44,159 bases of DNA. It comes from a virus. Positions 2,696-42,888 of the stretch are shown here, in pieces. Each line of letters starts with the position of its first letter. The first letter of the stretch is position 1. The translations under genes and the position numbers were made by a program. The notes beneath the pieces are model-generated. The model saw only the letters and a list, made by a program, of their open reading frames with translations. It was not told where the DNA came from and made no database searches. Where the stretch lies: the IMG/VR virus record IMGVR_UViG_3300027733_000083, positions 1 to 44,159 of that record. The stretch is one strand, 5' to 3'.

Positions 2696-3029
2696 AGAAA
2701 TTAAATTTAGGGATTGGAATCCCGAAGCCAAAGAAATGCAATATTTTAATTTAGATGGATATGATAGAGAAGTGCATGACGCTTACGGCAATATAATGCA
2801 ATTCACAGGCTTACTCGATAAAAACGGGAAAGAAATTTTTGAGAGTGATGTTATTAAAATAATAATGAAAGATTGTGTATTATTAGATGAAGTTTATTGG
2901 AGCGAGTCTGATGCTATGTTTTGCTTAAAAAAATTAAGTCGAAATATGCTTACTCTTCAAACGCATAATGTTGAAATTGTTGGCAATATTTACCAAAATC
3001 CTGAACTACTCGGAGGTGAAAATGAGTAA
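2688..3029 (+). CDS. YopX family protein
   Basis: The sequence shows the YopX pattern: MSREIKFRDWN at the N-terminus, MQFTGLLDKNGKEIFESDV in the middle and VEIVGNIYQNPELLG at the C-terminus. YopX proteins are small beta-rich phage proteins of unknown role. The length (113) is a little below the usual 120-140. A strong Shine-Dalgarno sequence (AAAGGAGG) precedes ATG. It overlaps its neighbours by 8 nt on both sides. Confidence 0.85.
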   Translation: MSREIKFRDWNPEAKEMQYFNLDGYDREVHDAYGNIMQFTGLLDKNGKEIFESDVIKIIMKDCVLLDEVYWSESDAMFCLKKLSRNMLTLQTHNVEIVGNIYQNPELLGGENE

Positions 3030-3204
3030 ATATGATTCTTTTGAATGGACTCTTTTATTTGCGGTATTGTTAGGCTTTGTTTTACTGTGTTTTACTGCAG
3101 TTTTTGACGGATACTATAGTCCTAAGCTTACAGAACAAGATTATTATAACAAATTTTGCAAAAAAAATTTTGATGTTTCTTGTGACAATATTAACTTAAA
3201 ATAA
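3022..3204 (+). CDS. Single-pass membrane protein, 60 residues
   Basis: ATG at 3022 has a strong Shine-Dalgarno sequence (CGGAGG) inside the end of the YopX gene, so I prefer it to the upstream in-frame ATG. Residues 10-29 form one hydrophobic helix (LLFAVLLGFVLLCFTAVF). The C-terminal part holds two Cys and is probably outside the cytoplasm. No family is recognised. Confidence 0.65.
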   Translation: MSKYDSFEWTLLFAVLLGFVLLCFTAVFDGYYSPKLTEQDYYNKFCKKNFDVSCDNINLK

Positions 3205-9371: not shown

Positions 9372-9390
9372 TTATTTTTAAAAATAATGC

Positions 9391-9418
9391 TTGACACATT
9401 AAAACACTTGTATAGTAT
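9391..9418 (+). promoter_or_regulatory. Promoter for the tRNA and structured-RNA locus
   Basis: TTGACA (9391-9396) and TAGTAT (9413-9418) are spaced by 16 bp. The upstream block TTTTTAAAAATAATGC is nearly the same as before the promoter at 14226. It lies 55 nt before the first tRNA. Confidence 0.75.
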
Positions 9419-9472
9419 GAGTTGCGAAGGTTGATAAAAAGACTTTTAAAAATATAAATCGTAAATATAAAT

Positions 9473-9549
9473 ATCAGATTAGCTCAGTAGGTTAGAGCAA
9501 AACACTCATAATGTTTGGGTCGGTGGTTCAAATCCATCATCTGATACCA
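9473..9549 (+). tRNA. tRNA with CAU anticodon (Met or Ile2)
   Basis: The cloverleaf is complete: acceptor ATCAGAT/ATCTGAT, D stem GCTC/GAGC, anticodon stem AAACA/TGTTT with loop CTCATAA, T stem GGTGG/CCATC with loop TTCAAAT, discriminator A and encoded CCA. The anticodon stem lacks the three G-C pairs of initiator tRNA. It is therefore an elongator Met tRNA or a lysidine-modified Ile tRNA reading AUA; AUA is a plausible need in so AT-rich a genome. Confidence 0.93.
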
Positions 9550-9550
9550 T

Positions 9551-9627
9551 TGGTAGGTAGCTCAGCTGGATAGAGCAACAGCCTTCTAAGCTGTAGGTCG
9601 TGGGTTCAAATCCCTCTCTACCAACCA
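9551..9627 (+). tRNA. tRNA-Arg (UCU anticodon)
   Basis: Acceptor TGGTAGG pairs with TCTACCA, the anticodon stem is ACAGC/GCTGT with loop CTTCTAA, and the T loop is TTCAAAT, followed by A and encoded CCA. It reads AGA, which is frequent in these genes. It is separated from the first tRNA by a single base, so both probably come from one precursor. Confidence 0.95.
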
Positions 9628-9644
9628 AAATCGTAAATATTTAA

Positions 9645-10140
9645 ATGGCTAGTGTTGTGGCGGAATATAGACGCGGTTAAACAATGCGCAAAATAGTGGT
9701 CGAACACAACGCTAGAAATAGCTTGAAAGGTAGAGGACGCTTCTCGGAAAGTTTGCTTGCAAAGGTGTAAGTCCTTTGCCAACGCTAGCTTTATAAATAC
9801 TTATTCGGTGGGTCGCACCCGCAAGTGGTTTTTGAACGAAGTAAAATTCGCACCAGTCAAAAACTGCTATACAGCTGGGAAAGACCGCACAACTCGGCAC
9901 GGGTAAAGAAGAGTGCAGAAATATTAGACAACGCAAGTTGAGCTAGTTAAATTGCTCGAAAGAGCTTCATTAATCAAGCGGTTAAGTTTAGTTAATTATA
10001 TTTAATACTAAACCTCTGGGACGAGCAAGCTAATTACCATCATCGCTTTGGTAAGTTCCAAGATTAGCAAGTGGGGAATGTCTAAGAAAGTTCCACTTTA
10101 AGGCACAGTTAGACCAGTTAGCCTTCTGTAAAAAGGCAAA
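9645..10140 (+). ncRNA. Large structured non-coding RNA candidate, about 500 nt
   Basis: The interval has no plausible gene and is richer in G+C than its flanks. Helices by eye: 11 bp 9649-9659/9705-9715; 7 bp 9759-9765/9773-9779; about 12 bp 9824-9835/9857-9868; 7 bp 9986-9992/10007-10013; 7 bp 10029-10035/10062-10068; 6 bp 10069-10074/10093-10098; 5 bp 10121-10125/10133-10137. Three hairpins carry GNRA loops (GAAA 9715-9718, GCAA 9933-9936, GAAA 9958-9961). Size, phage setting and position behind tRNAs recall ROOL and GOLLD RNAs, but I cannot confirm either. It shares the promoter at 9391. Confidence 0.7.
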
Positions 10141-10162
10141 TATTAACTTAAAATTAAAATAT

Positions 10163-10519
10163 ATGAGCAATCAACTAAATGAATTAACAATTGGACAATT
10201 TAAAGAATTATCGAATCTATTAAATAATAAAACCGAGCTTAATAAACCACACCCTTTTGAAATCGGTAAAAATTATTTCATCAGAACTGTGACTATGTCG
10301 CATGTAGGTAAACTTGAGGCTGTTTATGATGATACTTTTGTGCTATCATCTGCAAGTTGGGTTGCGGACAGTGGTAGATTAAATGATGCAATGAAATTAG
10401 GATTAGAAGCAATTAGTTCTTCAGAATTAGAGCCTTTCGTTAATAATCTTATTATCGGTCGCGGAGCTTTAATTGACATGACTATATATAATTTTCCCCT
10501 CCCAACCAAACAAAAATAA
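10163..10519 (+). CDS. Conserved phage protein of unknown function, 118 residues
   Basis: The core HPFEIGKNYFIRTVTMSHVG, then VLSSASWVADSGR and LIIGRGALIDMTIYN, matches a small beta-rich protein type that I recall from other phages, without known function. The first 30 residues are a helical extension. The start has the TATTAACTTA leader 22 nt upstream. The Ser-X repeat gene begins 4 nt downstream, so the two are probably translated together and may act as a pair. Confidence 0.75.
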   Translation: MSNQLNELTIGQFKELSNLLNNKTELNKPHPFEIGKNYFIRTVTMSHVGKLEAVYDDTFVLSSASWVADSGRLNDAMKLGLEAISSSELEPFVNNLIIGRGALIDMTIYNFPLPTKQK

Positions 10520-10523
10520 TTTT

Positions 10524-10685
<162 letters not shown>

Positions 10686-36659: not shown

Positions 36660-36785
36660 TTATTTTTTCTTTTTTACAAGCTTTTTTGCTCCAGCTTTAT
36701 CAGCTTTCATGTCAGCTTTTGAATTTTCATATTTTTTCAAAGCACTTTTAGGATTAGTTGCTTTTTTAATTGATTTTTTTGGCAT
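36660..36785 (-). CDS. Tiny Lys/Ala-rich protein, 41 residues
   Basis: The frame runs from ATG 36785 to TAA 36660 and overlaps the glycosyltransferase gene by 20 nt. The product is histone-tail-like (MPKKSIKKATNPKSALKKYE), with Lys and Ala dominating. It could bind packaged DNA or act in assembly. A 75-base gap with nothing notable separates it from the portal gene. Confidence 0.5.
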   Translation of the reverse strand: MPKKSIKKATNPKSALKKYENSKADMKADKAGAKKLVKKKK

Positions 36786-38406
36786 ATTTTTGTAAATAAT
36801 GATTAATATTAACAGATTTGGAATATATTTTATTATTTTTATCTTGCAAGTATTTTTTATTTAATTTTAAATTTTTATGCAACCAAGGAATTATACCTTC
36901 GCCGTAAACCTCAAAATTATTTAAACCGGAATGTTTAAAAAAATCTCTTAATTCCTGCACTTGTGCTAAAAATTCACCTTTTGTCCAAAAAGTTCTTCTA
37001 ACTTCTTTTTCATTGTAAGATTCACAAGATAAAGTAGTTTCTAACCAAATTGGTCTTTTGTTTTCACCCTCACCTTTTGTCAGTTTTAAATCTGGTTTTT
37101 CTAAACTGCATAAATCATAAGCAAATAAATGGAATTTTTTAAAACCAAGCATATCTAAAACCGCAATTCCTCTTGTGCAAGTAGCGGAACCGCCACAAAC
37201 CATTTTATGATCTTTAGGTAATATTTTATGTTCTTCTGCACCAACATAAGCATTATATCCCCATATTTCACAACCCTGTTCTAAAAGATTTTTAGTTACT
37301 TCGGGATTAACCATAGACGCAACAAACCATTTTATTTGATTTGCTTTTGGATGATTAACAAAATCCTTTACATGTTCTCTAGGGTCTAACAATATACAAG
37401 CCCAAGGAAGAATATCAGCATCTAACAATTTTTCTAGTGCGTGTTTTACGGCTACAATTTTAATTCCTTTTTCATAAAAAGGTCGAATTTCTTCAGGACA
37501 TAATGAAGGACCAGCATTTGCAATAACAATTTCTTCTTGATTCGGCTCGCAAATATCTAACCAGTTTTCAATTAATTCTAAATTACCTTTAATATTTTTT
37601 TGTATTATTTCATGATCTACGCAATTTTTAGTTTGAACTTTTAAGTTTTTTAAATCAACAACTCCACTTTCTTTTAGTTTTTTTGGTCCTTTGTGGTGAA
37701 CCATAAATTCTGCTAAAGTAGTTTTTTCAAAAACATCTCTACCCTCTATTCCTTTGGAAATATTTAAGAAAACATCTTTGCCATTAGCGTGATTAAAATC
37801 TTGTGCAATAACATCAAACACAAAACTGTCATGCCATTGTGCTAAGGTTAAAACTTCATCATTGATATACATCGATACCATTTTGTCTAAAAATTCTTTA
37901 CCACCTTTTTTAAGATTAAAAATCATAAAACCACATTCGCTATGATCCCAATCTTTTCTTCCTAAATAACTTGTAACTTGTTTTTTTGGTAACCATTGAT
38001 TAAAATTTTCTATTGGTTTTTTTATTTCAATATCAGCATCCATCCAAATAAGATATTCTTTACCTTCCGCTAAAGCGAATGTCATGGCTTGATGCAAAGC
38101 AAAAACTTTAAAAGAAAATCTGCGGTAGTCCATGCGATAATCTTTTTCGTCTTTTAATTTATGACGCTTTAAAAATTCTAATTGCTCAGGTGGAAATTCC
38201 CTTGAAATAAAAATAATATTTTCGTCTCTAGCTTTTTCAGTTAAAGGTAATAACCATTGCTCCGTTTCTTGTAATTGTGGGCAAGGGTCTAAGCCAATTA
38301 AAATGGTTAAATCTTTTGGCAAATTATTAAGCCAAGTTGGTATAGTTTTTTGTGGATATTCTACCCAATTAGGAAAAGTAGTGCAAAGAGCTATGTTTTT
38401 ATTCAT
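36766..38406 (-). CDS. Glycosyltransferase fused to a DUF115 (MAF-like) domain
   Basis: The N-terminal half (to about 240) is GT-A-like: LCTTFPNWVEYPQKTIPTWL and the metal-binding DAD (123-125) in YLIWMDADIEI. The C-terminal half (about 292-435) carries the DUF115 pattern: IVIANAGPSLCPEEIRPFYE, AVKHALEKLLDADI, PWACILLDPREHV. DUF115 occurs in Maf proteins that add nonulosonic acids to flagellin. A second ATG at 38415 is possible. It ends the six-gene glycan cassette. Confidence 0.72.
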   Translation of the reverse strand: MNKNIALCTTFPNWVEYPQKTIPTWLNNLPKDLTILIGLDPCPQLQETEQWLLPLTEKARDENIIFISREFPPEQLEFLKRHKLKDEKDYRMDYRRFSFKVFALHQAMTFALAEGKEYLIWMDADIEIKKPIENFNQWLPKKQVTSYLGRKDWDHSECGFMIFNLKKGGKEFLDKMVSMYINDEVLTLAQWHDSFVFDVIAQDFNHANGKDVFLNISKGIEGRDVFEKTTLAEFMVHHKGPKKLKESGVVDLKNLKVQTKNCVDHEIIQKNIKGNLELIENWLDICEPNQEEIVIANAGPSLCPEEIRPFYEKGIKIVAVKHALEKLLDADILPWACILLDPREHVKDFVNHPKANQIKWFVASMVNPEVTKNLLEQGCEIWGYNAYVGAEEHKILPKDHKMVCGGSATCTRGIAVLDMLGFKKFHLFAYDLCSLEKPDLKLTKGEGENKRPIWLETTLSCESYNEKEVRRTFWTKGEFLAQVQELRDFFKHSGLNNFEVYGEGIIPWLHKNLKLNKKYLQDKNNKIYSKSVNINHYLQKYAKKIN

Positions 38407-38408
38407 AA

Positions 38409-38717
38409 TTACCATTTTAAATTACTAATTCTTTTAATGTCATTTTCTATATTTACCCCAAATTGGAATTCAATAAAATTAGCATGACCGCTAAAACTAT
38501 GAATAACTTTTTTAGGAATGTAAAAAAATAAATTATTATTGCTAAATTTACCGTTTAAATAAAACTTTCCGTTACCTTTTAATTTTATCCAAAATTCACT
38601 TCTTAATTTGTGTTTTTGAAATGAAAGTGACCCATCAAATTTTAAATATTTAATTTTTAAAAAAGGTAAATTAATTAATGTAATGTAATAACCCCAGTTT
38701 CTATATACTTTTTGCAT
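38409..38717 (-). CDS. Cupin, phosphomannose-isomerase-like
   Basis: The 102-residue protein follows the type II mannose-phosphate isomerase cupin: NWGYYITL, LSFQKHKLRSEFWIKLKGNG, then YIPKKVIHSFSG. Metal ligands would be H36, E41 and H73. It may isomerise a sugar phosphate or only bind a sugar. It overlaps the nucleotidyltransferase gene by 17 nt. Confidence 0.75.
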   Translation of the reverse strand: MQKVYRNWGYYITLINLPFLKIKYLKFDGSLSFQKHKLRSEFWIKLKGNGKFYLNGKFSNNNLFFYIPKKVIHSFSGHANFIEFQFGVNIENDIKRISNLKW

Positions 38718-41292: not shown

Positions 41293-42888
41293 CTATTTTT
41301 GATTAGCCTTTTTAGCCAATCTATGCGATTCTTTTAACTCAACTCTATTTCTGTCTAGCTCTGTCATTATAAACGGACGACTAGCACAAGCATAAGCCAC
41401 GCAATCCCAAATATGATCTTCTTGATCACTGTCAGGTCCTTTTTCGGGGTGCAACTCATCAAGCTGTAAACTTGGCACAGTCCGCCAAAAGTGTTTGCAA
41501 CCCTGTAATGCGTAGAACGCTGGTAAATCCTCACCCTGTAATCTCGCTCTAAATTCTTGATAATTTTGAGCTTTACCTTTGCGACTTTGCACCATTCTAA
41601 ATACATTGCCCGTTGAACGATACATACGTTCCGCTACACTCATGCCATCATGCTCTCCCCACATTGCTGCATCGCCAACACGATAATCAATTGTTTCGCC
41701 CGTTTCTTGTTCTACCGCCAAGATTCTTCTAGCGACATCGGGGCTTTCTAACCTACACCCAACGTTGGGCTGTCCGCTCCACCCGTAGAACTCACGATAA
41801 AGTATTAAAGAATTAGCGGGAATTAATTTATCTTCGTAATTATCCTTAGCTTTGATTAAAGTATCAGCATCAGCAACCGCAAACCAACCTACAGCGAATG
41901 GCTTAGCCGTACCCCAATCAATTACCATAAACTTAGTCCAATAATCGGGTATTGCAAAGTTACGCACCAAATGACGCTCTCTGCTTAGCTTCTCAAATGC
42001 AAGTCCAAGCGTACTAGCTTCAAATGCTTCTTCCCAAGTGCACGGGTATTCTTGTCTAAATTCATCTTCACCGCGTAAACCAGCGCTTGACAGTTCAGCA
42101 ATCTTTTTGCGTCGCCATGCTATTTGTTCAACATCAAGCTTATAAAGCTTCATTAATTCCATCTCTTCTTTAGTCGCAATCATTGTATCGCTTGGCTTTG
42201 TACGATATTCTTTTTGCCAAAACCACGGTATAAATATTGGTATATAATCGCTTTCCCCACTTTGTGCTAGCATCCACTGCTCGTAGAACCAGTTAAGCTT
42301 TCCATTCGCTGTACTCTCAATGAATATTTCAGTTCCAAATTCATCCGGCACCGCTTGTAACGCACCTTTCGCTATATCTGAAGCATTGTCCCAGAAAGCG
42401 GCTTCCGAGCCATGAAAGTATTGTATTGTTGATGAACGACCAGTGTTTTTGTTGCCAGCTGTTCCGACTCTATATCCCGAATCAATTAAATCAAAACTTA
42501 ATTCTCTTTGTGATGACGCCCCAAGCTTAGGCTTGAAAGGTTCGGGACATAACTGATAATATCTATCAGCCATTTCAAATAAGTTGTTTGTAGCTTCTGC
42601 TTCATGTGTTAAAATAAACGCTCTACGACCAGCATTATTAGTGATTCGCCAAAATAAACGCCCTTCGATGTAAGTAGATATGCCCTGCTGCCGCCCCTTT
42701 AATATTATCGCTCTTACTCTCCCAGTCTTTTTAAGCTGTTCTTCTGCTGCCGAGTTTAAATATTGTTGAGCCGAATTTAATTCAAATTCTTCTATTGTTC
42801 CGCTTTTTGTTCTAATTTTGAGACAATTTAAAGCGTACAATTCAAAATCTTGTGATAATTCTTGACGAGCTTCTGAGCTTACTAACAT
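41293..42888 (-). CDS. terL: Large terminase subunit
   Basis: The ATPase has Walker A KGRQQGIST (64-72) and a Walker B-type FHGSEAAFW (158-166, with E162), then FIESTANG (189-196). The nuclease half has FMVIDWGTAKPF (320-331, D324), YRVGDAAMW (402-410, D406) and DHIWDCVAYA (491-500). The 531-residue length is normal. It packages DNA through the portal. Its base composition is visibly richer in G+C than that of neighbouring genes. Confidence 0.95.
   Translation of the reverse strand: MLVSSEARQELSQDFELYALNCLKIRTKSGTIEEFELNSAQQYLNSAAEEQLKKTGRVRAIILKGRQQGISTYIEGRLFWRITNNAGRRAFILTHEAEATNNLFEMADRYYQLCPEPFKPKLGASSQRELSFDLIDSGYRVGTAGNKNTGRSSTIQYFHGSEAAFWDNASDIAKGALQAVPDEFGTEIFIESTANGKLNWFYEQWMLAQSGESDYIPIFIPWFWQKEYRTKPSDTMIATKEEMELMKLYKLDVEQIAWRRKKIAELSSAGLRGEDEFRQEYPCTWEEAFEASTLGLAFEKLSRERHLVRNFAIPDYWTKFMVIDWGTAKPFAVGWFAVADADTLIKAKDNYEDKLIPANSLILYREFYGWSGQPNVGCRLESPDVARRILAVEQETGETIDYRVGDAAMWGEHDGMSVAERMYRSTGNVFRMVQSRKGKAQNYQEFRARLQGEDLPAFYALQGCKHFWRTVPSLQLDELHPEKGPDSDQEDHIWDCVAYACASRPFIMTELDRNRVELKESHRLAKKANQK

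Follow-up and report, generated by a model that had tools for sequence, protein, structure and literature searches.

Comparative sequence support for an array of exchangeable RNA cassettes behind the tRNA genes of a bacterial virus

Comparison with related sequences gives good support to the view that the gene-free stretch behind two phage tRNA genes is a noncoding array of at least six separately folded RNA cassettes (A–F), exchanged as units among both related and unrelated phages. The window analysed is 44,159 nt long and corresponds to the 44-kb virus record IMGVR_UViG_3300027733_000083 of IMG/VR; the virus infects bacteria. The cassettes lie end to end behind tRNA-Met and tRNA-Arg, with spacers of 0–10 nt, and an ORF follows (Table 1). 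A sequence-only reading of this DNA had called attention to about 500 gene-free bases after two tRNAs and a strong promoter, and the description is borne out by ARAGORN, by the ORF list and by the promoter, the best match in the region. Relatives retain a TTGACA...TATAAT promoter region. No forward ORF of at least 60 aa lies between 9371 and 10163, where the sole frame of that size is a 74-aa reverse one starting with TTG; a conserved protein frame across the interval, which the same reading had named as counter-evidence, was looked for and none was found. The G+C content, correctly read as higher than in the flanks, is 41.7% in the array stretch versus 30.4% in the window and ~32.5% in the flanking genes.

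Table 1. Features of the tRNA/RNA region of the window, followed by the arrays of four related contigs with the window positions of the blocks they share with it (L plus a number denotes a contig or locus of the comparison set)
Feature	Position	Strand	Parts or order	Evidence
Promoter	9391–9418	+	Sigma-70-type, TTGACA-16 nt-TAGTAT; predicted to drive the tRNA/RNA array	10/12 consensus positions
tRNA-Met(CAT)	9473–9549	+		ARAGORN; Rfam tRNA (pair scores 68.8 and 67.5 bits)
tRNA-Arg(TCT)	9551–9627	+		ARAGORN; Rfam tRNA (pair scores 68.8 and 67.5 bits)
Module A	9638–9799	+	Helix-closed slot, putative degenerate tRNA-like; closing helix 9648–9657/9780–9789; flanks TATTTA/TAAATA; D-arm-like 9658–9674; GAAA hairpin 9711–9722; T-arm-like 9759–9779	Closing-helix pairs in relatives; homologous tRNA-scoring modules
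Module B	9803–9890	+	Hairpin 9808–9822; long helix 9824–9835/9857–9868; conserved UAUAC; hairpin X 9874–9888 (GAAAGA loop)	10 homologues; 95.1% of cells paired; compensatory change at 10/23 pairs; 0/500 shuffles for covariation score
Module C	9892–9916	+	H-type pseudoknot; S1 9892–9895/9901–9904; S2 9897–9900/9913–9916; linker AAAGAWGA	17 sequences; 96.3% of cells paired; compensatory change at 5/8 pairs
Module D	9920–10068	+	Five helices (GCAA and GAAA hairpins among them) and a terminal stem, 10029–10034/10063–10068, with conserved loop AUCAUCGCUU	8 homologues; 98.0% paired; compensatory change at 9/26 pairs
Module E	10069–10114	+	Pseudoknot; S1 10070–10074/10093–10097 with 10077–10078/10091–10092; S2 10080–10085/10109–10114; invariant GGGGAA and AAGAAAGUUCC	9 gapless homologues; 98.3% of cells paired; 7/13 pairs compensatory, changed on both sides; 0/500 shuffles for covariation score
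Module F	10115–10137	+	H-type pseudoknot CAG-UUA-GCCUU-CUG-UAAA-AAGGC	S2 complementarity in 53/69
Downstream ORF	10163–10519	+	First ORF 3′ of the array, 118 aa, no known family	55 relatives in IMG/VR
L086 array	9786–9923 (B + C); 10115–10166 (F + leader)		tRNA-Met, tRNA-Asn, A (79 nt), B, C, T3, F	
L091 array	9789–9892 (B)		Two tRNAs, A (192 nt), B, ORF	
L102 array	9902–10169		Q, A (171 nt), B, T2, D, E, F	97.8% identity, though the next gene differs
L095 array			Q, tRNAs, T4, T1, A (229 nt), T3, F	

When IMG/VR was scanned using segments of the RNA, the tRNA-Met and neighbouring genes as probes, about 20 related contigs emerged that carry the same cassettes in other combinations, together with tRNA-like modules (T1–T4) and an additional block (Q) that are all absent from the window. 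Automatic mapping of the modules in more than 20 contigs gave differing orders and contents. In Blast comparisons, the blocks shared with the window begin and end at cassette edges. Shared modules are mostly 88–98% identical, often above the neighbouring protein genes (80–86%), with single flanks reaching 95% (L092). A close RNA relative found by protein search with the downstream ORF (L003; 84% identity over 9801–10072) lacks exactly module E. Moreover, B stands alone before an ORF in L091, E occurs without A–D in L183–L191, and F is solitary in 5′ UTRs. Since the parts occur singly and reordered elsewhere, we read the 500 bases as an array of independent cassettes, and on account of this shuffling of modules we reject one large RNA. 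Nor is the array bound to its downstream gene: most of the 55 relatives of that ORF are without an array, and arrays precede different genes in different relatives. These comparisons of sequence demonstrate both structure and modularity.

The sequence-only reading had favoured a large structured RNA, either a divergent member of ROOL or GOLLD or a class of its own. A structured, covarying noncoding region beside phage tRNAs is indeed present, and it belongs to no known class; the single large molecule and the ROOL/GOLLD assignment fall away. ROOL and GOLLD are noncoding, phage-borne RNAs of 500–800 nt that contain pseudoknots and occur near phage tRNA islands (PMC12286853). The array is likewise noncoding, phage-borne, tRNA-adjacent, pseudoknot-bearing and of a similar size class, but it consists of independent swappable modules, as opposed to one conserved fold. 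Searching 9380–10170 against Rfam 15 to E = 10 returned nothing besides the tRNAs and chance matches, the ROOL and GOLLD covariance models found nothing in the window that reached gathering score, and none of A–F matched any Rfam 15 family; identity with any of these is rejected. A weak YrlA score (18.5 bits; gathering 69) sits on the genuine tRNAs. A group I or II intron within a tRNA is also rejected, as neither the window segment nor the tRNA-like loci matched an intron family. Thus, although size, tRNA neighbourhood and phage origin would all suit a single ornate RNA of the ROOL/GOLLD type with one fold, known or new, the lack of an Rfam match, the solitary occurrences of B, E and F, and the variable order and content of the modules largely refute it and leave it very improbable.

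How strong is the case for RNA structure? Folded as one molecule, 9629–10162 gives z = −1.65, with 7 of 100 shuffles equally good, and we set this single-sequence energy aside as too weak to serve as evidence; the weakness stems in part from three of the modules being pseudoknots, which the energy model cannot see. Given this weak folding energy and the lack of an Rfam family, the case depends on relatives, and here the comparative evidence from aligned sequences is strong. The sequence-only reading had named covariation among homologues as the test, and covariation was found in the alignments of the modules: for each of B, C, D, E and F it lies above all 500 shuffles, a control that ignores the relatedness of the sequences, so that such figures are not probabilities. 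The weight of the covariation evidence lies in the slid controls, which for E all scored far lower, and in the distance between the phages that bear E. Exchange at cassette edges, with recurrent spacers AAAATCGTRAATATTTAAA between cassettes, could also be read at the DNA level, the inverted repeats then serving single-stranded DNA as sites of recombination or packaging. Against this stand the G-U pairs that count among the covarying cells of B, C and D, the restriction of the cassettes to one strand, the tRNA scaffolds and the position of F at transcript starts, and we consider it highly unlikely.

For slot A, nine closing-helix pairs of 8–13 bp were found among relatives, with six different 5′ strands and the fixed flanks TATTTA and TAAATA, and the helix shows compensatory change from allele to allele. 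A different first helix had been proposed from the sequence alone, at 9649–9659/9705–9715. This pairing is possible only because the window has two copies of CAACGCTAG (at 9707 and 9780); all other slot-A alleles carry the distal copy alone, which makes the closing helix of Table 1 the conserved pairing instead. The GAAA hairpin at 9711–9722, with which the first helix was proposed to compete, recurs within the tRNA-like module of L003; the competition itself is probably peculiar to this window. All three of the GNRA hairpins counted by eye were found (GCTA-GAAA-TAGC, 9711–9722; CAAC-GCAA-GTTG, 9929–9940; GCTC-GAAA-GAGC, 9954–9965).

Two relatives have modules that score as tRNA far beyond the curated Rfam gathering score of 29 bits, namely L003 (2530–2639, 49.6 bits) and L104 (2643–2765, 40.5 bits), the latter homologous to module A. 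In both, a long insert takes the place of the anticodon arm, with the acceptor, D and T arms left intact. Module T1 in L095, L099 and L100 keeps CCA and has a GAAA tetraloop capping the anticodon-arm position. The window's own module A falls below the threshold of the tRNA covariance model, being too degenerate, so that its designation as tRNA-like rests on homology to L092, with which it has D-arm-like and T-arm-like sequences in common. Artificial tRNA scaffolds stabilise recombinant RNA, and the modules resemble them. As in such scaffolds and in phage tRNA arrays, tRNAs lead the array and the tRNA-like modules have retained their acceptor, D and T arms; here, however, long inserts or GAAA-capped stems replace the anticodon arm, and the modules are mixed with unrelated pseudoknots. 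The stable RNAs C and D of T4 are noncoding RNAs inside a tRNA cluster, and bacterial Y RNAs (YrlA) carry a tRNA mimic; the likeness to these is one of tRNA-cluster location or tRNA mimicry, their sequences having been compared via Rfam only.

Module B was found in L140, L144 and L184, contigs fetched with F or E; the B model includes all three, and L140 and L144 had come up first in a profile search. In the form of B present in close relatives (window 9803–9890; L086 2876–2962), the first hairpin can pair with hairpin X in the minimum-free-energy fold, which is not the case in L140 and L144; a two-state fold is therefore possible in the close-relative clade only. Module C served as no probe before its collection scan, and the scan of 2.9 million viral contigs with its core returned nine, all previously obtained through other modules. 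Across 35 array contigs, the C descriptor was found 22 times on the array strand and never on the opposite strand, compared with 0–3 times in shuffles. L100, L098 and L111 also have the terminal stem of D, built from an entirely different sequence. The gapless alignment of E comprises the window, Vibrio phage MS02, Vogesella and six further IMG/VR contigs. Another 28 loci, which are unrelated, were used solely as background.

Module F differs from the others in its relation to transcription. Among 69 distinct sequences picked by the invariant core alone, S2 is complementary at its three free positions in those counted in Table 1, in ten or more combinations. Of these 53 distinct paired copies, 15 start 6–9 nt past a −10 box or a T4-late-type promoter box, versus a background of 2.3%. 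To judge from this spacing, the transcripts of the promoter-adjacent copies would begin with F's first base or very slightly upstream of it. Most of them lie upstream of small phage genes, and one (L118) precedes a four-tRNA operon. In the window and many relatives, F closes the array ~25 nt upstream of a start codon; it also occurs inside arrays, remote from any promoter. In six loci (L123, L131, L147, L154, L175 and L182), F forms the 5′ UTR of a family of small late phage proteins beginning MFNTF, 6 nt past a CTAAATA or ATAAATA box; this family is possibly phasin-like.

Function we can only infer. Most likely, the cassettes give phage RNA resistance against nucleases or serve to decoy host enzymes. 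Our preferred reading, held with moderate confidence, is that of a co-transcribed and processed array of nuclease-resistant RNA domains in which F acts as a 5′-end shield, with transcription, processing and stability all deduced from sequence. The promoter would give a single transcript across the tRNAs and the array, which RNase P and other tRNA-processing enzymes may cleave near the tRNAs and the tRNA-like domains. Closed helices, tRNA scaffolds or tight pseudoknots would then let the cassettes persist, with the tRNA-like modules acting as natural tRNA scaffolds that present a variable RNA insert at the former anticodon arm. The shield role is suggested by the presence of F at transcription starts in other phages. 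Given its place at the array end, just before the start codon, an upstream cut would again make F a 5′ end, here of the downstream mRNA, which it might guard against 5′-end-dependent decay. Several points count against the preferred reading. The shield idea offers no account of the strong conservation of B, D and E; F copies lie within arrays, off promoters; and the tRNA model fails to recognise the degenerate module A of the window.

It is also possible, though less likely, that the cassettes are anti-defence decoys. The tRNAs would replace host tRNAs cut by defence nucleases, the tRNA-like modules would be uncleavable baits for these enzymes, and C, E and F would mimic type III antitoxin RNAs or occupy other host RNases. 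Rapid turnover of content between close relatives and the tRNA mimics without an anticodon fit this main rival, and there are precedents: phage tRNAs oppose tRNA-cleaving defences (PMC11555353, PMC10264068), and the pseudo-ToxI pseudoknots of phage PhiTE suppress ToxIN (PMC3475682). Like ToxI and pseudo-ToxI, the pseudoknots described here are small, phage-encoded and of the H type, with A-rich loops; but ToxI is a tandem repeat beside a toxin gene, whereas here differing pseudoknots are present in single copies, there are no direct repeats of at least 12 nt in 9629–10162, and no toxin gene was found. A search of the record for the ToxN family (PF13958) gave no match, with control genomes likewise silent, and the neighbouring ORFs belong to no toxin family. 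Furthermore, the Rfam search gave no ToxI match, and the position of F at mRNA 5′ ends suits a role in cis better.

Such a role might be that of a leader whose modules influence RNA polymerase or the translation of the operon that follows, for instance by antitermination across the long untranslated region in the manner of HK022 put, a known RNA-only phage antiterminator (PMC9378689). The array does sit between promoter and operon, hairpin X is found close to the repressor in early regions of temperate phage genomes, and put RNA, too, is made up of short stem-loops, located in the early leader of a phage (PMC9378689). However, the HK022 segment compared, 27.5–34.5 kb, has no X-type hairpin, which speaks against put as the identity of hairpin X, and the arrays precede different genes. 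We regard a cis-acting leader as improbable.

Elements of the array reach well beyond its close relatives. E is present in Vibrio phages, Pseudomonas phages and Vogesella. In Pseudomonas phage Cruim01, E (27 bits, E = 5e-6) and hairpin X share a 916-nt gene-free gap, and this E has a new, perfectly paired S2 (CGCUGC/GCAGCG). Gene-free gaps with hairpin X are also present in Medea1, mEp390, ESP2949-1 and P7641, and BUCT708 has several copies. The bare hairpin-X descriptor is barely enriched (92 versus 62 in shuffles), so X was counted only within its TGACAGC...ACC context. Phages that infect E. coli, Klebsiella, Cronobacter and Stenotrophomonas carry X, and cultured Pseudomonas and Vibrio phages carry E, which opens the question to bench work. 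Among bacteria, only the Vogesella genome matched the exact E pattern, the E model found none in 398 further genomes of that phylum, and E was not found in E. coli. Across these genomes E is rare, and we reject a bacterial reservoir and take E to be phage-borne.

In the open-access literature searched, subscription papers and preprints lying largely outside that scope, no description of such arrays was found. With coverage of this kind, the novelty is provisional: no RNA system in the papers covered is arranged in this way, with interchangeable beads, insert-bearing tRNA scaffolds and a pseudoknot placed precisely where transcripts start. Five clearly covarying motifs are missing from Rfam 15. 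If the modules protect or camouflage RNA, many long gene-free phage gaps would be explained and ready-made RNA stabilisers gained. Tentatively, and with rather low confidence, we suggest that a common kit of small structured RNA cassettes, comprising B, C, D, E, F and hairpin X at the least along with natural tRNA scaffolds, passes horizontally among phages, which string the cassettes together in gene-free islands and use them in trans against host RNases or tRNA- and RNA-based defences, as an RNA counterpart of protein anti-defence islands.

Finally, several further observations concern the loci compared. A further domain 3′ of E in Vogesella is common to the P. aeruginosa phages phi297 and AUS531phi. 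A helix-closed RNA domain of ~200 nt occurs in phages of both P. aeruginosa and P. syringae as well as in Vogesella (L192–L195, ~2990–3200; L191, ~2320–2520; L201, L203), and in Cruim01 and Medea1 its apical loop resembles a tRNA anticodon arm (CCUGA-CUCGUAA-UCAGG). Gene-free gaps in ESP2949-1, P7641 and ep3 (L206, L207, L208) contain hairpin X, a variant of it in ep3, and then a long ACAAC...GTTGT hairpin; these gaps probably hold further RNA cassettes. The RNA island of Stenotrophomonas phage BUCT708 includes an RprA-like stretch (L204:1207–1326) that, at 50.2 bits, does not reach the gathering score of 70, and coliphage mEp390 (L202) has sequence similar to it (TGCTGTGTGTAGTCTTGGC).

In the window itself, a small ORF (MNQAILFRGYLLSRSRSGSRSGSWSRS...; 10524–10682) encodes chiefly Ser-Arg/Gly/Trp dipeptides; its relatives in L002 (3351–3703) and L003 (3390–3517), compared by eye, keep the MNQAIL start with quite different DNA repeat units. 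The terminase large subunit (41293–42888, − strand, 531 residues) is related to Pseudoalteromonas and Vibrio phage terminases across its first 292 residues. Its best phage matches span only residues 4–292 or 13–369, and from where they stop we take the C-terminal part to be divergent or rearranged. A 549-aa protein in the structural gene region (36766–38415, − strand) has an MptE-like domain (PF01973, 53 bits), an unexpected location for it.
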